From Defluviitaleaceae bacterium (lineage in GTDB: Bacteria; Bacillota; Clostridia; Lachnospirales; WQUN01): a DNA stretch of 64,000 nucleotides. The notes under the pieces are model-generated. The model searched no databases and had not been told where the DNA came from. It saw only the letters and a program-made list of their open reading frames with translations. Below, one piece after another: positions 4,980-14,597 of this stretch. The translations under genes were made by a program, and so were the position numbers. Position 1 is the first letter of the stretch. Each line of letters begins with the position of its first letter. Location: positions 1-64,000 of the forward strand of contig WRAH01000010.1 in the NCBI GenBank assembly GCA_009780315.1. The letters run 5' to 3'.

Positions 4980-6653
4980 TTAACTTAAATGCACTCCTTT
5001 ATCCTCCACTACATATACCTCATCGCAAATGTCCATAGTGGCTTTGTCATGGGTAATAACAATACAAATTTTGCTTTGTGAAAGTCGTTTTATCTCTTTG
5101 TGTAAAATGACAATACTATCTTTATCAAGATTTGATGTAGGTTCGTCAAAAATGATTACAGGGCTATCTTGGTATAATGCGCGGGCTATGGCGACACGTT
5201 GCCCTTGACCACTGGATAACTCTGTTGCCCCTTCGCCAATGATAGTGTCATATCCCTCTGGCAAGGTTGTGATAAATTCATGTATACCCGCCGCAATTGC
5301 GGCTTTTTTCATAGTGGATTCATTCACATCATGTGTCATACATATGTTTTCTGTTATACTTCCACTAAATACATAGTCTGTGGGGGGGACATATGCCACA
5401 TGAGGTAAAATATTTTGCGTAAAGCAATCTTCTGTGTCTTTAAGTTTAACTGTACCTTTATGAGGTGTATAAAAGCCCATAATAATTTTTGACAGGGTGC
5501 TTTTTCCGCTACCGCTTTCACCTGTAATGGCTGTAATTTTACCTGGTAAAAAACTAAGGGAAACATCACGCAATACGGCATCATCATTGTTGTATTCGTC
5601 TTGATATGAAAAGGATACATCTTCTATCGCAAGTTTTGAAACTTTGTTGATAGGTGTATTTGGATATGAAGTTTCATCTGGCAAATGGGTAACAGAAATG
5701 ATGCGGGATACACCTGCTTTTGCTTCGGAAAATAGCGTTATATACTGGTTTAGAGATAAGACAGGACGGTATAAATTGCCGCGCAAAGCCATGATAGCCA
5801 ACACTTCACCTACGGTTAGCATTTCTCTCATAACAAAAAAACCACCCAAAGCATATACAGTGAATGTTAATAGTTCATTATATACATTGTTGACTTGGGC
5901 ATGATATGCACCAACTTTGGCGCGTTTTATAGATGCTTTCTCTTTTATAATGTTCAAACTCCTGTGTTTAGCAGCCAGTTTATCAATCATGAAAAATGCT
6001 CTAAAAAGAAATGCTTTTGAAAATCCTTCATGCATATTTTTGCGTACACTTTCCTCTGCTTTCGTCAACTCCTTTGCTCTCCGCTCTATTACAGGTGCAA
6101 ATCCATTCATAATTAAATATGCAATTGGAAGCGTAGCTGCAATAATCGCTGACAATTGCCAATTTATGAAAAACATCATAATGACAGAACCCAAAACCAT
6201 AAGCGTATTCCACACAAAACTCTCTGATAAAAAATCAAAAAGTGAAATTGTTTTTTGGGTGTCATCCGTTGTTAATGTCATAAGCTCTGCGGAATGCTTG
6301 TTTTGCATATCTTTATATTTGCGGCTGAAAAATTTTCTTAGTATATATTCTCTTAAACTAACCTGCATTCTGATGAAAACAATATGTCCTACATAATCTC
6401 TGACATATATACCTATACAAATGAAACTAACACCAATAGCTATGAGTATGGCAGAATACCCAATACTACCTTCGACTCCACCCAGCGTTACATCCACTAA
6501 ATTTATAGTGGCATGTATCATAATAAAAGCACCTGTTGATATTAACATTACAAAGAGGGTTTTAATGAGCAATAGATGTCTTACACCCTTAGTAAAAAAC
6601 CATGCAAAGTTTAAATACTTTTCCTTTTTTGTTTTCTTATTATTTTTCAGCAT
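4980..6653 (-). CDS. ABC transporter, fused membrane and ATPase domains (first of pair)
   Basis: A 557-residue half-transporter: membrane domain in residues about 25-310, then an ATPase with Walker A GESGSGKST, signature LSSGQGQ, Walker B VIIFDE and VITHD. It lacks a peptidase domain. It lies between the 32-residue Cys peptide gene (upstream, past a hairpin) and the second transporter gene, all on the minus strand. Together the two look like a heterodimeric exporter, with this subunit carrying the standard Walker A. The likely cargo is the neighbouring peptide, inferred from position only. Confidence 0.88.
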   Translation of the reverse strand: MLKNNKKTKKEKYLNFAWFFTKGVRHLLLIKTLFVMLISTGAFIMIHATINLVDVTLGGVEGSIGYSAILIAIGVSFICIGIYVRDYVGHIVFIRMQVSLREYILRKFFSRKYKDMQNKHSAELMTLTTDDTQKTISLFDFLSESFVWNTLMVLGSVIMMFFINWQLSAIIAATLPIAYLIMNGFAPVIERRAKELTKAEESVRKNMHEGFSKAFLFRAFFMIDKLAAKHRSLNIIKEKASIKRAKVGAYHAQVNNVYNELLTFTVYALGGFFVMREMLTVGEVLAIMALRGNLYRPVLSLNQYITLFSEAKAGVSRIISVTHLPDETSYPNTPINKVSKLAIEDVSFSYQDEYNNDDAVLRDVSLSFLPGKITAITGESGSGKSTLSKIIMGFYTPHKGTVKLKDTEDCFTQNILPHVAYVPPTDYVFSGSITENICMTHDVNESTMKKAAIAAGIHEFITTLPEGYDTIIGEGATELSSGQGQRVAIARALYQDSPVIIFDEPTSNLDKDSIVILHKEIKRLSQSKICIVITHDKATMDICDEVYVVEDKGVHLS

Positions 6654-6676
6654 GATACCATCCTTCTTTCATTAAC

Positions 6677-6722
6677 AAGAACAAAAAGACGATGTGATTA
6701 TGCACAAACGTCTTTTGTTCTT
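6677..6722 (-). terminator. hairpin between the peptide gene and the transporters
   Basis: A 14-bp stem (AAGAACAAAAGACG on the minus strand paired with CGTCTTTTTGTTCTT, one bulged T) lies just after the peptide stop. Such partial terminators after a precursor gene keep peptide mRNA in excess of transporter mRNA. The function is inferred. Confidence 0.65.
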
Positions 6723-6733
6723 ACAAGATAAAC

Positions 6734-6832
6734 TTACGCCTTACATCCTACATTTTCGGCTCCTTCACAAGGACATCCTGTGTTGTGTAAAGGATTGAAC
6801 CCTTGGTCAAAACTTTCTCTGATAATTTTCAT
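6734..6832 (-). CDS. 32-residue Cys-containing peptide, candidate radical SAM substrate
   Basis: A short gene with a strong ribosome binding site (AGGAGGT, 6838-6845) 5 bases before the ATG. The N-terminal half (MKIIRESFDQGFNPLHNTG) has no cysteine. The C-terminal part holds three (GCPCEGAENVGCKA). There is no signal peptide. This layout, a leader followed by a Cys-rich core, next to a radical SAM/SPASM gene and exporters, suggests a ribosomally made, modified peptide with thioether links (sactipeptide or ranthipeptide type). The peptide resembles no named family that I recognise, and the modification is inference. Confidence 0.72.
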   Translation of the reverse strand: MKIIRESFDQGFNPLHNTGCPCEGAENVGCKA

Positions 6833-6899
6833 ACGTACACCTCCTTTGCTTTTTTAATAAATGCTGTGTACTTTATATATGCAATGAGGAAGAGTTCCC

Positions 6900-8243
6900 C
6901 TACATACCAACAGAATATTTGAATTGGTTATATACATTGGCTTGCTGTTCTTTTTTATTGCACTCCTGTTGTTTTCCCTGTACTTTACCAAGTGGGCATA
7001 GACCACCGAAGCAAATCGGCAATATATTACATTCCTCGCATTTGTCATTTAAAAAGTTATATCGAACTACCCATGGCGCATGTTTTTGATGAAGAATATT
7101 AAATACACCCTCTTCTTCAACTTGTCCGATTTTGTTAAAATCATCATCCAATTTTAATGTGCATTTTAAAATTGCTCCATCGTAGTCTATGATAAACATA
7201 TTGGGTTTTGACGCGTAGCACAAACTATGAAATGGTTGAGAAAATACATTTTTCATTTCATTCTTTAACTCCAGACTTGCTACAATTTTTGCAATTTGAA
7301 TTTTAGACTCAACAAGATTTTCATTGGTTAATATATTAAGGTTGCTATCATTTTGTCCGCCCCATTTTTGCATATTGATATAACTTACGCTGAAACGAGG
7401 GTCATTGAAATTTTCTTTAATAAAACTATAAAAATCTTTAGCATGTGTTGTCATTTCTTCATCAAAATTAGAGCGTATAGTAATTTTAAAATCGTGGCCG
7501 GTACTTTTTGCGTACAGTAAATTAGAAACAATCGTTTCAAAAGATGGACTGCCATCTGCTTTGCATTTTCGGGCATCATGAGTAAGAGCCAGACCATCTA
7601 AAGTGATTTGAAAAAACTCGCAATTAACTGTGGCAAGCGCGTCAAATCGTTCAGGTGTTACAAGGGAGAAGTTTGTAGTAGCACTAGCGGTAAAAGGAAC
7701 ATCATGATTTTTACATATTTCCTTAGCTTGCTTTAAGAAAGCGATAACCTTATCGAATGGTAAAAAAGGCTCTCCGCCAAAAAGGTTAATTTGAACCGCA
7801 GAATGTAAATTCTTTTCAAGAGACTTGTCTATATAGGTTAATAAATTTCTATACACACTGTCAGTCATATACTTATCTTGTAAATCTTCATAACAGTACA
7901 CACAGCGAAAATTACATTGACGTGTAGGCAAAAGCGTGAGACTTAGAACATTTGATTTTAGAATAGTTTGCTCGTATTGATACAATGCCATTTCATACTC
8001 ATTGACACCAGTTTCCGCAAAAATACCGTGTTCATAAAAAACTTGGTGCATTTCGTCATCTTTATCATAATCAAAAACATAATGACTATCTTTATCAAGA
8101 AATTTTTTAAGCTTGTCTAAAAAGGGTTGTTCATCTATATGCAATATGGCACCACTTAAAGTGTTTGCTACAACATATGTACCATCATCACGGGGGATAA
8201 ACAAAGTATATTTACTTATTAAAAGTTGCTTTGACGCTGTCAT
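6900..8243 (-). CDS. radical SAM/SPASM peptide maturase
   Basis: A 447-residue enzyme. The radical SAM motif C-x3-C-x2-C is at residues 110-117 (CNFRCVYC), with the GGEP motif after it. The C-terminal SPASM region has the Cys cluster CEECNILPICFGGLCP plus further cysteines (C at SLCYA, ILKC, QECN), enough for two auxiliary iron-sulfur clusters. The N-terminal 90 residues may bind the leader, as in thioether-forming maturases. GGAGG precedes the ATG. It is the first gene of the minus-strand operon with the Cys peptide and two ABC transporters. Confidence 0.9.
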   Translation of the reverse strand: MTASKQLLISKYTLFIPRDDGTYVVANTLSGAILHIDEQPFLDKLKKFLDKDSHYVFDYDKDDEMHQVFYEHGIFAETGVNEYEMALYQYEQTILKSNVLSLTLLPTRQCNFRCVYCYEDLQDKYMTDSVYRNLLTYIDKSLEKNLHSAVQINLFGGEPFLPFDKVIAFLKQAKEICKNHDVPFTASATTNFSLVTPERFDALATVNCEFFQITLDGLALTHDARKCKADGSPSFETIVSNLLYAKSTGHDFKITIRSNFDEEMTTHAKDFYSFIKENFNDPRFSVSYINMQKWGGQNDSNLNILTNENLVESKIQIAKIVASLELKNEMKNVFSQPFHSLCYASKPNMFIIDYDGAILKCTLKLDDDFNKIGQVEEEGVFNILHQKHAPWVVRYNFLNDKCEECNILPICFGGLCPLGKVQGKQQECNKKEQQANVYNQFKYSVGM

Positions 8244-8445: not shown

Positions 8446-8613
8446 ATGATAAGAAAAAGTCGTATTGTTTCTAGGATGTTAACACTTGCTGTTGGTGCAA
8501 TGTTGGCAATGGGGTTGTTGTGGACAAGCCCAGCGGTTGTGAGTGCTGACACAAGCTATATTGAATCAATACCATTTGATTGTGATTGTCCAACTATTCG
8601 TCCTGTTAATTAA
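8446..8613 (+). CDS. 55-residue secreted peptide, candidate signalling pheromone
   Basis: The gene has GGGAG at 8431-8435, 10 bases before the ATG; longer in-frame starts lack a site. The product has a clear Sec signal peptide: positive start (MIRKSR), a hydrophobic core (residues about 12-26) and a cut site after SPAVVSA. About 21 residues would be released, with the centre SIPFDCDCPTIRPVN. It converges on an HTH-TPR regulator. Known RRNPP regulators (PlcR, NprR) use such secreted, reimported peptides, so a pheromone role is likely. It could instead be a second substrate of the radical SAM enzyme. Confidence 0.7.
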   Translation: MIRKSRIVSRMLTLAVGAMLAMGLLWTSPAVVSADTSYIESIPFDCDCPTIRPVN

Positions 8614-8619
8614 ATAAGA

Positions 8620-9531
8620 TTATTGTATTAAGATGCCGAAATTTTCTTCGGCATCTTTTTTTATTATTGCGGCACTTTCATTATCACCATGGGCGCGTGC
8701 GCAATAATATGCTTGCTCAAGATGACTTTTGTATACATACACTTCCTCTTTTAAAATGCGCTGACAGCAAGCGATATTATAATGTAGCCAAGGGGTATTG
8801 CCATAGGTGCTATATTTTTTTTCTAATTTAAGTGCTTCAAAAGAGGTGCTTAAAGCTTCTTCTATTCTTCCAGCTTTTCTAAGAAATCCTGCCAAGGTAT
8901 ACGTTAAAGAGGGGAATAAGATTCGCCTGTCATCCTCTGTAGTTTTAGCATTTTCTCTACCTTTAAGTATTGCTTTTATCAATTCAATACTTCTATCGTA
9001 TTCTTTTAAATCGTATAACTTAAATGCAATTTCAGTAACAATGAGAATCTCATGATATGTCATTCGCTTGTTGATTACTTCGGTTTCATTATAGTCTTTC
9101 ATTGTCATTTTGATAATTTTTTCAAGGTCAATGATAGCTTGTTCTGCTGTTAGGTCTTCGTTTGTAACAACATGTGCATAAGCGATAAACTGTTTGATAA
9201 AAGGTTCTTTTGCGAGCTTTGTTTTTTCAAAATATGGTAGAAACTTTCTTGCTTCATCAAGTCGGGAATTACTGCGTAATAGGAGATTAAGTTCACGATA
9301 TTTTCGATAGGCTTCATATTCGTCTGTGTCTAAATAAAGCATCCAAAAATTTTCTGTGGGTTGTCCTACTACTTGTGCGATTGACGCGAACTCCCAAATA
9401 GTTACATCCTTATATCCTTTTTCAATTTTGGATACTTTTTGCTGTGATATATTCAATTTTTCGGCTATGTCCGTTTGGCTTAAATTGGCTTCCTCACGCC
9501 ATTGTTTTAACGGTGTACTATTGATTTTCAT
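8620..9531 (-). CDS. HTH-TPR transcriptional regulator (RRNPP/Rgg-PlcR type)
   Basis: A 303-residue protein with an N-terminal Xre-type helix-turn-helix (residues about 8-62, SQTDIAEKLNISQQKVSKIE) and an all-helical C-terminal part with TPR-like repeats (residues about 90-300). This is the architecture of peptide-sensing regulators of the RRNPP family. AGGAGG lies 7 bases before the ATG. It converges on the secreted 55-residue peptide gene and lies next to the radical SAM operon. In streptococci, Rgg-type regulators control radical SAM peptide operons in the same setting; control here is inference. Confidence 0.82.
   Translation of the reverse strand: MKINSTPLKQWREEANLSQTDIAEKLNISQQKVSKIEKGYKDVTIWEFASIAQVVGQPTENFWMLYLDTDEYEAYRKYRELNLLLRSNSRLDEARKFLPYFEKTKLAKEPFIKQFIAYAHVVTNEDLTAEQAIIDLEKIIKMTMKDYNETEVINKRMTYHEILIVTEIAFKLYDLKEYDRSIELIKAILKGRENAKTTEDDRRILFPSLTYTLAGFLRKAGRIEEALSTSFEALKLEKKYSTYGNTPWLHYNIACCQRILKEEVYVYKSHLEQAYYCARAHGDNESAAIIKKDAEENFGILIQ
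8630..8663 (+). terminator. terminator of the secreted peptide gene
   Basis: Stem AAGATGCCGAA / TTCGGCATCTT with a 6-base loop and a T run. It lies inside the 3' end of the convergent regulator gene, so both transcripts overlap here. Confidence 0.85.
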
Positions 9532-9582
9532 AATAAGACCTCCTGCAATCTTTTAAGTACTAATGATGAAATTTTTTACTAG

Positions 9583-9630
9583 AAAAAACACACTAAGACA
9601 TGAAGAAATATTTTTCACGTCTTAGTGTGT
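9583..9630 (-). terminator. terminator of the 113-residue gene
   Basis: Stem ACACACTAAGAC / GTCTTAGTGTGT, followed on the minus strand by TTTTTT. Confidence 0.8.
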
Positions 9631-9640
9631 TATGCGCCCA

Positions 9641-9982
9641 TTATTTCTTCTTTAAAAATAATCTAGTCCCTGACCGTTCAAATACTATTGTATCACCTGC
9701 TTGACAATTGAGTACATCAAGGAATTTTTTATCCAGTGTTGCTGGTTCCCAATGACCAATTTCCATGTCTCCATTGTCGTCTGCCACTAACTCAATTGTA
9801 TTAGAATTATCAACGACTACTGCCTTAGCCTTGCTCCATCGTTTCCAGCCCCATTGGTTATAGAGCCTTGAGGGTAGATGTAACTTGCATTCTTTGTTTA
9901 GCTTACTTTCTAGGGGCACATTGTTTGCTTCATCAGATTCATCTTCAATCCGTGCCCACTCTCCTGGTGACATAATACCCAC
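9641..9982 (-). CDS. hypothetical protein, 113 residues
   Basis: Not recognised. It is soluble, with no signal or membrane segment. The first 30 residues are acidic (RIEDESDEANN) and the rest is beta-rich with a basic end (FLKKK). The motif CQAGDTIVFERSG is reminiscent of the swapped-hairpin AbrB fold, but this is weak. The GTG start at 9982 has AAGG 7 bases upstream; an ATG at 9973 has none. It forms its own unit, upstream of the HTH-TPR regulator and ended by a terminator. Confidence 0.6.
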   Translation of the reverse strand: MGIMSPGEWARIEDESDEANNVPLESKLNKECKLHLPSRLYNQWGWKRWSKAKAVVVDNSNTIELVADDNGDMEIGHWEPATLDKKFLDVLNCQAGDTIVFERSGTRLFLKKK

Positions 9983-10128
9983 GTGCGCGCCTTCTCTCTA
10001 AAATATATTTTTAATGGAGATATGTGACCTTTTGTAACTATTCACATGTGTATCCCACTAACAAACATTATATATGTTTTTCAATCAAATTCAAGTTGTG
10101 TTAATGACATTGTGAATACGATTGATAC

Positions 10129-10157
10129 TTGCATTATATTATTCTATTTGCTATTAT
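10129..10157 (+). promoter_or_regulatory. putative sigma-A promoter for the tandem peptides
   Basis: TTGCAT and TATTAT are separated by 17 bases, about 40 bases before the first peptide start. Only a moderate match. Confidence 0.4.
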
Positions 10158-10176
10158 TGCAATATAAGACAAAGTT

Positions 10177-10231
10177 TAAGAAACGAGTGTGGTTAATATG
10201 TTCTTTAGCTTTATATTTGCATTGATGTTTA
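10177..10231 (+). repeat. direct repeat, copy 1 (55 bp; copy 2 at 10316-10370)
   Basis: The leader and first 11 codons of the two small peptides match at 53 of 55 bases, 139 bases apart. The duplication includes the untranslated 21 bases before each start codon. Confidence 0.9.
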
Positions 10232-10293
10232 AAGACTTTAATCCTGTTCCAATTATACCGTTTAGTGGTGGAGAACCTCCATGTGGTTTTTAA
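10198..10293 (+). CDS. 31-residue hydrophobic peptide, copy 1
   Basis: A short gene starting MFFSFIFALMF, then KDFNPVPIIPFSGGEPPCGF. The hydrophobic N-terminus and the conserved C-terminal block PFSGxEPPCxF recur in the next copy, which argues that it is translated. There is no standard ribosome binding site. The 20 bases before the ATG (TAAGAAACGAGTGTGGTTAA) are shared by both copies. Short hydrophobic peptides next to HTH regulators are typical pheromone precursors (Shp-like) in Bacillota; the role is inferred. Confidence 0.6.
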   Translation: MFFSFIFALMFKDFNPVPIIPFSGGEPPCGF

Positions 10294-10336
10294 TAATATT
10301 ATAATCCCTAAATTATAAGAAACGAGTGTGGTTAAC

Positions 10337-10432
10337 ATGTTCTTTAGTTTTATATTTGCATTGATGTTTAGCGAATCTGATTTTATGGTAATTATGCCTT
10401 TTAGTGGGCCTGAACCTCCATGCGAATTTTAG
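10337..10432 (+). CDS. 31-residue hydrophobic peptide, copy 2
   Basis: A second peptide of the same length, starting MFFSFIFALMF and ending MPFSGPEPPCEF. The N-terminal 11 residues are identical to copy 1, the middle differs, and the C-terminal block is conserved. Substitutions fall mostly in the middle, which suggests that both ends are under selection. It lies 55 bases before the HTH regulator start and on the same strand, so the three genes may be cotranscribed. Confidence 0.6.
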   Translation: MFFSFIFALMFSESDFMVIMPFSGPEPPCEF

Positions 10433-10487
10433 TAATATTATAAACTAAATAATACTGGGCCTTTTTGAACGATAGGAGATGTTATTG

Positions 10488-11549
10488 ATGAAGCCAGAAA
10501 TAACAAAAGAATCTTTGATACAGGAGTTTCTTGTATTTACTTTTGTTTCAAAATCAGGTTTAAGAAAATTTATAATCAAGATTGAAACATATATGGATAA
10601 AAAACCACCAGATTTAGAACTAACGCTTATTTTAAGTACACTGAAAACTGTAAAAGCTGACAATGACCAACAAAGTTTTGAAGTCTGTTGTGCAACTGCA
10701 ACGCCAGCTTTTGAAGCGTTGAAGTCCATTCCAAAATGGGAGTACCTCCATCTTTACTGCATGTCTATACTTATTACGTATCGTTTCGTCTTTGATGAAT
10801 CATGGGTATTTTTTGGAAAGGCACTAAATGCATTAGAAAATTATAATGATGACAAATATTTACAAATTCGTACTGCATTACACTTTAACATGACTATGAG
10901 GATTTTGCGCACTAAATACCTTGAACCATCCATAAGCAATACAACGTTAAACGCTAAATTCTCCCAATGTTATGACTATGCTATGGATATATGTGTTAAA
11001 AGAGAACGACCACAACAGCACGTATTAAAAGTCAGAAAAGGCATTTATGACAACAATATGGAACTGATTAGAAAGGGCTTAACCACCCTGCGTAAACTTA
11101 AAGAGACTAAACGGTATAAAAATGCAAAGGCAGATATCGTTGAATATCTAAACTTTATGGAAGAAGATTTAACCACTGACTTGATGAACACACTACAAGG
11201 GTATCAAATAGGTAAAAGGCGTAGGGAGTTAAAACTATCAGTACTTGAACTAGCCGATTTGACAGGAATGGAAGAAACAACAATAAATGCCGTTGAGCGC
11301 GGCGATTGCGGTGTTTCGTCGGTTAAACTAAAAAGACTTTCTAAAGCCCTAAATGTAAGTGTAGACTACATTCTTGGAAACGACAGCGCGAAGCCAGAAG
11401 ATGAAGACATCTATGTCTCCCGCTTTAAAGCCTATACATCAAGGGCAACAAAAGCACAGAAGGAACTATTTATGAAATCTGTTTCCCTATGCGCAGAAGC
11501 TTTAAATCTTAGCGGCAGTGAAGCCGTACCCGATGAAAATAACGAATGA
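10488..11549 (+). CDS. HTH regulator with C-terminal Xre domain
   Basis: A 353-residue protein. Residues 1-235 are helical and unrecognised, possibly a TPR-like sensor. An Xre-type HTH lies at about 240-297 (SVLELADLTGMEETTINAVE). A charged tail follows. The HTH is C-terminal to the helical part, opposite to the usual RRNPP order. ATG 10488 is preferred because AGGAG (10474-10478) is 9 bases upstream. The two tandem 31-residue peptides lie directly upstream on the same strand. A strong terminator follows. The function is unknown; peptide-responsive regulation is a reasonable inference. Confidence 0.72.
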   Translation: MKPEITKESLIQEFLVFTFVSKSGLRKFIIKIETYMDKKPPDLELTLILSTLKTVKADNDQQSFEVCCATATPAFEALKSIPKWEYLHLYCMSILITYRFVFDESWVFFGKALNALENYNDDKYLQIRTALHFNMTMRILRTKYLEPSISNTTLNAKFSQCYDYAMDICVKRERPQQHVLKVRKGIYDNNMELIRKGLTTLRKLKETKRYKNAKADIVEYLNFMEEDLTTDLMNTLQGYQIGKRRRELKLSVLELADLTGMEETTINAVERGDCGVSSVKLKRLSKALNVSVDYILGNDSAKPEDEDIYVSRFKAYTSRATKAQKELFMKSVSLCAEALNLSGSEAVPDENNE

Positions 11550-11556
11550 AAACAAC

Positions 11557-11604
11557 AACGCCCCAAGGTAGAAAAGCATTTTCTACATCTTGGGGCGTTT
11601 TCTG
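11557..11604 (+). terminator. terminator, repeat copy 1
   Basis: Stem AACGCCCCAAGGTAGAAAA paired with TTTTCTACATCTTGGGGCG, then T residues. Near-identical copies lie at 12310-12355 and 13781-13826. Confidence 0.9.
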
Positions 11605-11716
11605 TTTAATTGCAAGTGATGATAGTAAGATATAAGGCTATTTTTTAAGTTGCTAATATAGACGTAATTATGGCATAATAATCACGTAATATTGACTTAA
11701 AAAAGGAGGAAAAACC

Positions 11717-11995
11717 ATGTCAACAGTTCCGACGATTAGACCCATTACCGAATTAAAAAATACAACCAACATTTCTAAACTATGCCACGAGATAAAAGCC
11801 CCTGTATTTATAACTAAAAACGGTTATAGTGACTTGGTAATAATGAGTATTGACACATACGAGCGAAACATGGCTTTATTAGAAATCTACAGCAAATTAG
11901 ATGAAGCAGAGGAACAATTTAAACTAGACTTGCCAACCAAAAGCCACAAGGAAATGACAAGTAGTTTACAGGGGCGTATAAGTGCAGAATTATGA
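11717..11995 (+). CDS. type II antitoxin, Phd/YefM family
   Basis: A 92-residue protein. The N-terminus (TIRPITELKNTTNISKLCHEI) and the ITKNGYSDLVIMSIDTYE block are typical of Phd/YefM antitoxins, which bind their own promoter and neutralise the toxin. The charged C-terminal third (EEQFKLDL) would wrap the toxin. AAGGAGG precedes the ATG. It overlaps the toxin gene by 14 bases. Fragments of this gene occur again at 12753-12788 and 13894-14010. Confidence 0.9.
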   Translation: MSTVPTIRPITELKNTTNISKLCHEIKAPVFITKNGYSDLVIMSIDTYERNMALLEIYSKLDEAEEQFKLDLPTKSHKEMTSSLQGRISAEL

Positions 11996-12302
11996 TATTC
12001 GTTATCTTCCAATAGCCGAAGACGACTTAAACGAAATAGTTGACTATCTGCTTGAACACAGTATAAACGCCGCCAATGAGTTTATAGATGGGTTAGAACA
12101 CTTATCGCAACAACTTTCAAATTATCCAGAATCAACACCGCTTATACGTAATAAAAAGCTACGAAACAGAGGGTATAGAGTGGCGATAGTTGGTGATTAT
12201 CTGCTGTTTTACACCCTGCGCAATGAATGCGTTTATATCATGCGGATTATTCACGGCAAAAGAAATTATTTGTCTTTATTACTTGATGAAAATAACAAAT
12301 GA
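11982..12302 (+). CDS. type II toxin, ParE/RelE superfamily
   Basis: A 106-residue protein with the ParE/RelE pattern: IRYLPIAEDDLNEIVDYL at the start, a central GYRVAIVGDYLLFYTL strand pair and the final MRIIHGKRNY. ParE members poison gyrase and RelE members cut mRNA; the exact target is not clear. It overlaps the antitoxin, so the two are translated together, and ends at the second copy of the shared terminator. Confidence 0.88.
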   Translation: MQNYDIRYLPIAEDDLNEIVDYLLEHSINAANEFIDGLEHLSQQLSNYPESTPLIRNKKLRNRGYRVAIVGDYLLFYTLRNECVYIMRIIHGKRNYLSLLLDENNK

Positions 12303-12309
12303 AAACAAA

Positions 12310-12355
12310 AACGCCCCAAGGTAGAAAAGCATTTTCTACACCTTGGGGCGTTTTT
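12310..12355 (+). terminator. terminator, repeat copy 2
   Basis: Same hairpin as at 11557, with TTTTT after the stem. Flanking bases on both sides (AAATAACAAATGAAAAC before, CTGTTGAATTGCAAGTG after) are also shared, so a unit of about 75 bp was copied. Confidence 0.85.
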
Positions 12356-12386
12356 CTGTTGAATTGCAAGTGTTTCATCGAATGGT

Positions 12387-12452
12387 CTATCGTTGCTTTT
12401 TGATTGCTCTGTAGTCTTTTTTGAAACGTGCGGAGTATCTAATCGTCAGCAT
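12387..12452 (-). pseudogene. YafQ/RelE toxin remnant after dinJ
   Basis: A start codon inside the end of dinJ opens a frame beginning MLTIRYSARFKKDYRAIKK, the N-terminus of YafQ-type toxins, but a TAG ends it after 21 residues. The following sequence runs into the terminator repeat. The toxin has been truncated and the antitoxin left as an orphan. Recognised from family knowledge of DinJ-YafQ order. Confidence 0.7.
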
Positions 12453-12711
12453 CTAAATCCTCCATCAGTTCCTTAACGCTATGAAACGGTCTGCTCATGT
12501 TGCGCCCCAAGTTTACATCTTGAATCGCCGAAAGGGTTTCCTCGTTGGGGATATTTAACCGCAATTCAAAAGGAATACCTCTTGAACGTACTGCTTGACG
12601 TAAAAACATGGTAAGGGCTGTAGACATATTTAGCCCTAATTCGTTAAAAATTTCCTCTGACTGCTTTTTTAAGTCTGCATCAATACGGACATTTAGATTT
12701 GTGGTTGCCAT
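12439..12711 (-). CDS. dinJ: RelB/DinJ family antitoxin
   Basis: A 90-residue protein with the ribbon-helix-helix start TNLNVRIDADLKKQSEEIFN and the family phrase MSTALTMFLRQAVRSRGIPFEL. DinJ proteins repress their own operon and block YafQ. The ATG at 12711 gives the usual N-terminus MATTNLNVRID; an upstream TTG is possible. The partner toxin is reduced to 21 codons, so this antitoxin has no intact partner in the window. Confidence 0.9.
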   Translation of the reverse strand: MATTNLNVRIDADLKKQSEEIFNELGLNMSTALTMFLRQAVRSRGIPFELRLNIPNEETLSAIQDVNLGRNMSRPFHSVKELMEDLDADD

Positions 12712-12752
12712 AGTTATCAACGCCTATTCATCAAGGTTTTAACAATAGCATA

Positions 12753-12788
12753 GAGCGCAACACGGCTCTATTAAAAATCTACAGCAAG
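12753..12788 (+). repeat. 35-bp fragment of the Phd antitoxin gene
   Basis: The stretch GAGCGCAACACGGCTCTATTA and the bases after it match, with a few changes, the coding region around 11861-11895 and the copy at 13910-13944. It has no reading frame of its own. Confidence 0.7.
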
Positions 12789-12797
12789 TTTGTTCTT

Positions 12798-13151
12798 TTA
12801 ATCAAAGTTTGCAAAAATAGTATTTTGATAAGCCTTGTAATTTTTTGAGAATATAGCCTTCAAATCATCAGGAAGGTCACACACTTTTCTTTCAAGAAGT
12901 CGCTGAGAACCTGTATAAAGCTTGGTCGTTTTTATTACTGACGCACGGGTTAAACCTAGTTCCTTTGCTTGCTTTTCACTGATTTCAACATCATATTTAC
13001 CCACTGATGACGAAGAAGAAACCATACAATAATGAATATCCACGATACTAAGATTATTTTCGCTATCATTACCAATGACAAGTACAGGACGTGCCTTGTA
13101 GCCTGTGTCATTAGGCAACGTAGCCTTATAGTACCAAATCTCCAAAATCAT
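12798..13151 (-). CDS. PemK/MazF-like toxin
   Basis: A 117-residue protein with a PemK/MazF-like N-terminus (ILEIWYYKATLPND) and the strand KARPVLVIGNDSENNL, where MazF members have an Arg-Pro-Val-Leu motif. Members are mRNA endonucleases. The ATG at 13151 is preferred: GGAGG is 7 bases upstream, while the ATG at 13157 is only 1 base from it. The gene overlaps the Panacea-domain gene by a few bases, so the two form one unit, likely toxin and antitoxin. Confidence 0.75.
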   Translation of the reverse strand: MILEIWYYKATLPNDTGYKARPVLVIGNDSENNLSIVDIHYCMVSSSSSVGKYDVEISEKQAKELGLTRASVIKTTKLYTGSQRLLERKVCDLPDDLKAIFSKNYKAYQNTIFANFD

Positions 13152-13606
13152 GCCCATTCCTCCAACTTAGGCTGGAACATAAGCCCTATGAAGTAATCAG
13201 CTATGATTTCTTTGGGAATAACCTTGTCAGTTCGTCCATCAGGGTCTAGTCCACTACGCGCATAAATCCATGGGTCTTGCGCATGGGTTAAATTCTCAAG
13301 GTACTTACCATCGTATTTACCGTAAGTATCTTTCACTTGCTCTAAAATTTCTTTTTGTACATCCGTCATACCGTCAAGGCAATATGTTATATCAATAGGG
13401 TTGTAGCCATATGACTTATATTTATGATAAACAACTGGAACAACTGGGCCATGTACCCATGCCTCAAATTGTTCACTAAACAGTTCTTCATCATGCATAC
13501 AAAAAGATATGCCTTGTGCAAAGTATAATAACTTTTGCAATTTTAGTGTATCGGGTCTTAACTCATTTATAAAGTATCTGCTTGCAATTTCTAATGCTTT
13601 TGTCAT
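13148..13606 (-). CDS. Panacea/SocA-type (DUF4065) antitoxin
   Basis: A 152-residue protein with the Panacea/GepA features: LRPDTLKLQKLLYFAQGI, then EAWVHGPVVPVVYHKYKSYG. Panacea domains act as antitoxins for many unrelated toxins. The ATG 13606 has GGGAGGT 4-10 bases upstream (13611-13620). The overlap with the PemK-like gene supports a toxin-antitoxin pair, here with antitoxin first. Pairing is inferred from order and overlap. Confidence 0.8.
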   Translation of the reverse strand: MTKALEIASRYFINELRPDTLKLQKLLYFAQGISFCMHDEELFSEQFEAWVHGPVVPVVYHKYKSYGYNPIDITYCLDGMTDVQKEILEQVKDTYGKYDGKYLENLTHAQDPWIYARSGLDPDGRTDKVIPKEIIADYFIGLMFQPKLEEWA

Positions 13607-13704
13607 TTTTGCCACCTCCCAAATAAATTTCTTTATACCAATGTTCATAACCGCTCTTCTTATATTATATAATCATAATCCATGTAGTTGCAAGGATATA
13701 TACA

Positions 13705-14015
13705 GATTCTCTATGGGCAGAAGCTTTAAATCTTAGTGGTAGTGAAGCAGTATCCCATGAAAATAACAAATGAAAACATAAACGCCCCAAGATAGAAAAG
13801 CATTTTCTACATCTTGGGGCGTTTTCTGTTTAATTGCAAGTGATGATAGTAAGATATAAAGCTATTTTTTAAGTTGCTAATATAGACGTAATAATGAGTA
13901 TTGACACATACGAGCGCAACATGGCTCTATTAGAAATTTACAGCAAATTAGATGAAGCAGAGGAACAATTTAAACTAGACTTGCTAACACAAAAGCCACA
14001 AGGAAATGAACGCCT
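13705..14015 (+). repeat. degenerate copy of 11481-11960 with internal deletion
   Basis: This block repeats the 3' end of the HTH regulator gene, the shared terminator (13781-13826), the promoter region and then part of the Phd antitoxin gene. A 173-bp segment is missing; the junction lies at a short GTAAT that occurs at both ends of the deleted part (11664-11668 and 11837-11841). The antitoxin fragment (MSIDTYERNMALLEIY, 13894 onward) loses frame similarity after about residue 37. It encodes no complete antitoxin. Confidence 0.85.
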
Positions 14016-14039
14016 ACTTGTCGGGTTTTGGGGTTATCC

Positions 14040-14597
14040 TCATTGCTGTTTTTTTAATTGGGCTTCGAGTTCGGCAATTCGAGCATCTTTTTCATCAATC
14101 ACACTTTGTAATTTCGCTCGCTCTGCTTCTGCACCCTTCTTTCTTGCAGTATTCAAAGCATTTGATTCATCATGGCGGGTCTTAGCCTTCAGCCATTCTA
14201 AACTCCTAAATTCTTCTGTGGCAGTAACGCCACGGTATGCTTTAATTGCTTCGCCCATTACGTCACCTCCGTTTTTGGTCAACTCCTCTAATTCTTCCTC
14301 GGTTTCTGCGTTAAATAATGCAAGCTACAAATCCTTTTCACTTTTGGGGTCTATTGATTCCACATCTTTCATTTTTGGAAGTTCAAAGAAATGCAGACCG
14401 CATTTGTCTGTTAGCGGTGTGTGCCTTTTAACTTCCAACACTTGAAACTCGGAATGTACTTCTTCACAATCGAACAATTCAAAATCTATCATAGCATATT
14501 TTAATGTTGTTTTCAATATTGAGTTTTTGCACTTGTTCAAAGACACCCGAAAGGCAATACCGCCTTTCGGGTGTAAGATTGGCTTAAATTTCGTCAA
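14040..14597 (-). pseudogene. Rpn/PD-(D/E)XK family transposase-nuclease, broken
   Basis: Two pieces in the same frame. The first (14597-14325) has ECxxVHSEFQVLEV-like and LHFFELPKM segments of Rpn-type recombination-promoting nucleases. It ends at a TAG (14325-14327). The frame continues at once with LALFNAETEEELEEL and a C-terminal coiled coil (ARKKGAEAERAKLQ), the family's normal end. The N-terminal catalytic region is also shortened. Best read as an inactivated transposase relic. Confidence 0.75.

Follow-up and report, generated by a model that had tools for sequence, protein, structure and literature searches.

Known peptide-receptor systems

The closest described systems are the Rgg/SHP pairs of Streptococcus and the other RRNPPA receptors (PlcR/PapR, ComR/ComS, PrgX, Rap/Phr and AimR), in which the HTH domain, if there is any, is N-terminal (PMC12700828, PMC12445099). 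SHPs are 20–26 aa long with an N-terminal Lys, and an average of 4.9 Rgg genes per genome set of S. thermophilus was termed unusually high (PMC12445099); tandem copies are known for other pheromones (PMC11343458). The RRNPP_detector survey discarded clusters with an N-terminal TPR region and also propeptides without basic N-terminal residues (PMC10075063), and both discard criteria describe the receptor family reported here.

The window, i.e. the whole stretch of 64 000 nt that was analysed, belongs to the genome of a Defluviitaleaceae bacterium (2.9 Mb in 73 contigs, 95.6 % complete). Its two tandem peptides and the regulator behind them are most likely part of an expanded peptide-pheromone/receptor family, which by its anatomy works like Rgg/SHP and yet is no member, since domain order and peptide type differ. 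As in Rgg/SHP, a short hydrophobic peptide gene adjoins the receptor, the HTH is of the Cro/CI type, there are several copies per genome and the peptide-binding domain has the same fold (Z 17–18 to Rgg144 and Rgg3-SHP3). In contrast to Rgg, the HTH is C-terminal instead of N-terminal, the N-terminal Lys that SHPs carry is missing from the peptides, no EcsB/PptB was found, and the genome holds 19 copies, as opposed to 4.9 Rgg genes on average in S. thermophilus (PMC12445099). The other RRNPPA systems likewise share the groove-shaped helical-repeat domain and an adjacent small peptide gene, but their published HTH is N-terminal (PMC12700828). Leaderless communication peptides, which act with RopB (PMC10518010), are similar in being signals without an export signal and in having a receptor of the Rgg-family fold, whereas the peptides described here are longer (27–35 aa) with a long hydrophobic half, and the receptor order is reversed. 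We found no earlier description of a reversed-order family, and a literature search for circularly permuted RRNPP proteins or ones whose HTH is C-terminal, covering mostly journals outside subscription, returned nothing relevant.

Tandem peptides upstream of the regulator

The features of the locus are as follows.

10148–10162, no strand: weak operator candidate directly before peptide 1, TTGCTATTATTGCAA
10171–10304, + strand: repeat unit 1 (leader, peptide ORF 1 and trailer)
10198–10293, + strand: putative pro-pheromone 1, MFFSFIFALMFKDFNPVPIIPFSGGEPPCGF, ATG at 10198, alternative GTG at 10189
10310–10443, + strand: repeat unit 2, 81 % identical to unit 1
10337–10432, + strand: putative pro-pheromone 2, MFFSFIFALMFSESDFMVIMPFSGPEPPCEF, ATG at 10337, alternative GTG at 10328
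10488–11549, + strand: receptor/regulator, 353 aa, one of 19 genomic paralogues
10500–11162, + strand: N-terminal helical domain of the receptor (aa 5–225, about the first 230 residues), Rgg/PlcR pheromone-binding-domain fold (AlphaFold2, VIA-align, Pfam Rgg_C)
11214–11372, + strand: C-terminal Cro/CI-type HTH of the receptor (aa 243–295; Pfam HTH_3)

The earlier note had described two tandem 31-residue peptides, duplicated together with their leader, lacking a Shine-Dalgarno site and lying on the same strand just before an HTH gene, and each of these points was borne out. A repeat search returned the two units as a direct repeat of 134 nt, the longest within 9000–13500, and the tandem arrangement is thereby confirmed as a real sequence feature, beyond chance. 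Identity between the copies is uneven, i.e. 24/27 in the leader, 32/33 in codons 1–11, 15/27 in the middle and 25/33 in the last 11 codons. Both ORFs have 31 codons, with the alternative GTG three codons before the ATG in each, and end 55 and 194 nt upstream of the regulator, which starts at ATG 10488 with AGGAG at the right distance. No Shine-Dalgarno match of at least 4 nt was found before either ORF, unlike most paralogous peptides, for which such a site is present. The palindrome TTGCTATTATTGCAA is kept in form in three paralogues; with 18 occurrences in the window, its pattern is too common for evidence, and it is given as a suggestion only.

Domain order and fold of the receptor

The window receptor was modelled with AlphaFold2 from 13 sequences (pLDDT 84, pTM 0.68). 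Residues 5–225 align with residues 72–287 of Rgg144 (VIA-align Z 17.2, rmsd 3.4, 203 aligned), followed among the PDB matches by Rgg3-SHP3 (15.5), Rgg2 (14.6) and PlcR-PapR (14.2), and then by Rap, RopB, PrgX and ComR; high Z values come easily with helical repeats, and the RRNPP entries nevertheless stand above the others. Residues 227–299 match the HTH domains of C.BclI and P22 C2. A second model, of relative L107 (25 % identical to the window protein), gave Z 18.3 for Rgg144 and 17.8 for Rgg3-SHP3, and its first 17 matches are nearly all Rgg, RopB, PlcR and ComR, ahead of the first unrelated TPR protein.

Therefore, the half that would bind the pheromone comes before the half that binds DNA, and this order is kept throughout the alignment of 46 family members. 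A family alignment, A1, proved too diverse for pattern scans. Pfam HTH_3 was detected in 46/46 members and Rgg_C in 11/46, with E-values from 1e-5 to 5e-3 in those inspected, i.e. below the curated cut-off. In the window's genome Rgg_C had no match at E≤1, and across 196 genomes of the class there was one sub-cut-off match only; a sequence profile of the sensing domain run against the PDB returned no RRNPP match, and a BFVD fold search returned HTH matches only. With the Rgg_C scans near-empty, the link to Rgg thus rests on the fold and on the sub-threshold matches in relatives. Measured against what defines RRNPP(A) systems, both AlphaFold2 models show the TPR-like/Rgg-type helical domain, and the receptor (353 aa, within 250–500 aa) has an adjacent propeptide gene of 10–100 aa, as do 15/19 paralogues; the HTH, however, follows the peptide-binding domain.

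Paralogues and their peptides

Seventeen of the 19 paralogues in the window's genome are full-length and two are cut by contig ends. Clear short hydrophobic peptide ORFs lie directly upstream on the same strand at 15/19 receptors, one to four at each and 22 in total. Of the remaining receptors, L018 on the plus strand is doubtful, L014 and L018 on the minus strand have no recognisable peptide, and at L013 the peptide frame is broken by a TAG (MYLFSLVTLISG*FMTFVPFGCSDLVGGLEGCDL), which suggests a decaying ligand gene in front of a receptor that is still open. Tandem copies occur in the window (two), at L017 (four) and at L020, L022 and L025 (two each).

The 22 clear peptides follow a common plan, i.e. 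a hydrophobic start, then xPFxPFG/S (replaced by PTPRGPG at L024 and L025), and finally a tail that varies, either acidic or of the Gly/Pro/Trp kind (e.g. PPCEF, PGDFDGWDL, GPVEW). The MFFSFIFALMF start and PFSGxEPPCxF end that the earlier note had seen in both window peptides are common to the window's small clade and do not extend to the rest of the genome. Sigma-A-like promoters were seen by inspection directly before several peptide ORFs, hairpin-like terminators separate peptide from receptor at L016, L024 and L025, and at L012 the stop codon of the peptide ORF overlaps the start of the receptor gene.

SHPs combine a length of 20–26 aa and an N-terminal Lys with PptAB export, whereas these peptides have 27–35 aa and none of the 22 has a K or R in residues 1–8. 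No Sec or SHP-type export signal is therefore evident, and judged by inspection the peptides, with no basic residues at the N-terminus, do not fit the layout of Sec-exported propeptides of the PapR/Phr type (basic N-terminus, hydrophobic core, signal-peptidase site). A search of the 95.6 % complete genome found no EcsB/PptB exporter family match; seven SBP_bac_5 oligopeptide-binding proteins are present.

Linkage, selection and co-diversification

A blind rule (18–45 codons with a hydrophobic N-terminal stretch, preceded by a Shine-Dalgarno match of 4 nt or more, on the same strand and at most 300 nt upstream) picked out peptides at 14/19 own receptors and 14/27 distant receptors compared with 6/116 of the remaining genes on this DNA (Fisher p 9e-11 and 5e-8, respectively, in tests that are not fully independent since the paralogues are related). 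The window pair itself is missed by this rule as it has no Shine-Dalgarno site.

The earlier note had allowed for the case that neither frame is translated, but pN was lower than pS in 16/16 peptide pairs compared. In the window clade, pN/pS is 0.50 for codons 1–11, 1.32 for codons 12–20 and 0.29 for codons 21–31, with 60/105 differences at third positions, which argues for a peptide that is translated, has a functional C-terminus and varies freely in the middle. Across loci, similarity among peptides correlates with similarity among receptors (Mantel r 0.78, n=16, within the genome and r 0.68, n=37, in total, with p 1e-4 in either case), and it does so as well when the last 15 peptide residues alone are used; the correlation points to a stable pair and not to binding, as common descent of a linked pair suffices.

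Distribution in relatives

Of 392 genomes sampled from the order, 11 contained full-length homologues, with two further genera of the family among them; the one congener searched (G001) had no family member, and a class-wide sample gave a match in the window's genome only. All twelve named homologue loci come from 'Defluviitaleaceae bacterium' MAGs with Emb289/Lab288 isolate names, presumably the MAGs from termite guts reported in PMC7024585. The search for peptides upstream of regulator homologues that the earlier note had proposed found them at 11/12 named relatives, in addition to the 15/19 own paralogues, with 21–30 aa, a strong Shine-Dalgarno site and an end roughly 30–120 nt before the receptor, and with three peptides in tandem at L111. 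At L102, a locus of G109, the family member has a Sec-type upstream peptide of 46 aa instead (MKGKKRGIIAVLLALVMVATLATPLVADEATPPVRARSLDPGDEPE), not one of the short hydrophobic kind. In the tree, the paralogues of the window's genome form one expansion, and other genomes show separate expansions. IMG/VR viral contigs, plasmids and phage records contained no relatives, so that nothing points to carriage by a phage or plasmid.

Adjacent regulators and conventional receptors

Three further genes lie on the other side of the peptides.

8446–8613, + strand: Sec-type propeptide for the conventional receptor, ending in TSPAVVSADTSYIESIPFDCDCPTIRPVN; close counterpart beside the second conventional receptor (L130), analogous one beside the third (L131)
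8620–9531, − strand: conventional receptor, 303 aa, N-terminal HTH (HTH_3, aa 8–53) followed by TPR-like helices (TPR_12, E 6e-4)
9641–9982, − strand: AbrB/MraZ-fold (swapped-hairpin) DNA-binding protein, divergent from the peptides, weak Pfam MazE/MraZ matches

A related AbrB/MraZ-fold gene is divergent from the peptide at 10/19 receptor loci, including the window, and is the best candidate for a target, or else a co-regulator. The genome has four conventional receptors with an N-terminal HTH, all of which (4/4) adjoin a reversed-order receptor (rough chance 4e-6), and Sec-type propeptides adjoin three of the four; in the window and at L130 and L131, propeptide and conventional receptor are convergent. 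The mature part of the window propeptide, IESIPFDCDCPTIRPVN, resembles IETIPFDVAHPVERADYE at L130.

Proposed pheromone signalling and alternative explanations

An Rgg/Shp-type pheromone role had been proposed in the earlier note. What stands of it are the paired peptides at homologues, the signs of translation and the Rgg pheromone-domain fold, so that a pheromone/receptor pair of this kind is strongly supported by anatomy and fold; what does not carry over are the domain order, the N-terminal Lys and the EcsB/PptB exporter. Overall, we estimate at about 75 % the probability that the peptides are pro-pheromones, sensed inside the cell by the downstream protein, which would be both their receptor and a transcription factor. 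The peptide gene would head the transcript and be translated, and the peptide would leave the cell, be trimmed to a C-terminal piece around PFSGxEPPCxF and be re-imported by an oligopeptide permease. The trimmed peptide would then sit in the concave groove of the Rgg-like N-terminal domain, and binding may alter the contact of the C-terminal HTH with the shared promoter region from which the peptide gene and the AbrB/MraZ-like gene diverge, leading to autoinduction and a relay to further targets, with the variable residues conferring a private specificity on each of the about 19 pairs.

The peptide might instead stay in the cell, as a micropeptide cofactor made in cis that binds the new receptor and sets its activity, thereby reporting its own transcription and not cell density. 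The lack of a basic N-terminus or Sec signal, the failure to find EcsB/PptB, and a peptide gene that is apparently first in the same transcript, with the stop/start overlap at L012, would all fit, as would the Sec-type propeptides of the neighbouring conventional receptors, which make the contrast between the peptide types real. We nevertheless consider it unlikely, as a hydrophobic N-terminal half joined to a constrained C-terminal half is the layout of an exported pheromone, tandem copies with a freely varying middle better fit a processed ligand, and oligopeptide import proteins are present.

The consistently upstream, same-strand position of the peptide ORFs, the hairpin-like terminators at three loci and again the L012 overlap would suit leader ORFs, whose translation controls the regulator by attenuation or coupling and whose sequence matters to the ribosome only. 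Such a role is very improbable in view of the tandem arrays of up to four copies, the purifying selection seen at the C-terminus, the co-variation of peptide and receptor and the Rgg-like ligand-binding fold of the receptor. It is even harder to credit that the HTH protein represses small membrane-active toxins or bacteriocins encoded by the peptide ORFs: the peptides are short, hydrophobic and sometimes tandem, and a toxin-antitoxin-like pair lies just downstream (11717–12302), but their polar C-terminal tails are conserved, they lack cationic character and they co-diversify with a pheromone-domain protein.

Returning to pheromone signalling, we lean slightly towards a new receptor class, i.e. 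an Rgg-type sensing domain before the HTH, acidic or neutral hydrophobic pro-peptides, an exit that is neither Sec nor PptAB, and roughly 19 such channels side by side in a single gut bacterium, connected to AbrB/MraZ-like regulators that are encoded divergently. The novelty is in the reversed order of the receptor, in peptides of an atypical kind and in how far the family has expanded. If true, a whole architecture has been excluded by rule from published surveys of Gram-positive peptide signalling, and searches built on the usual domain order would miss the family, as the receptor halves are reversed. Sensing and DNA-binding domains would be swappable in order, which bears on how peptide binding reaches DNA, and about 19 natural co-varying pairs in one genome would be usable for deriving specificity rules. 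The exit route of a pheromone without a basic export signal would also become a concrete question.

Other neighbouring genes

A compact RiPP operon (4980–8243, − strand) lies beside the two peptide receptors of the window.

4980–6653, − strand: ABC exporter
6734–6832, − strand: candidate RiPP precursor, 32 aa, MKIIRESFDQGFNPLHNTGCPCEGAENVGCKA, strong Shine-Dalgarno site
6900–8243, − strand: radical SAM/SPASM maturase

The operon recalls the Rgg/SHP control of streptococcal RaS-RiPPs, where such loci are likewise found nearby (PMC13361665); a regulatory link here would be conjecture. Secreted Cys-rich proteins of about 110–180 aa adjoin reversed-order receptors at L012, L013, L017 and L024, those at L017 and L024 having CCDYHxDxD...HSWGxWxR in common; Pfam gave no informative match, and the proteins are possible effectors or targets.

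Downstream of the receptor gene, at 11717–12302 (+ strand), a Phd/YefM-like antitoxin gene (PF02604) is followed by a 106-aa ORF that by eye resembles a RelE/ParE-type toxin, and the 75 nt past this ORF are a 93 % repeat of the terminator past the receptor gene. Fragments at 13665–13803 and 13894–14282 repeat parts of 11532–11925 and show signs of local duplication and decay.
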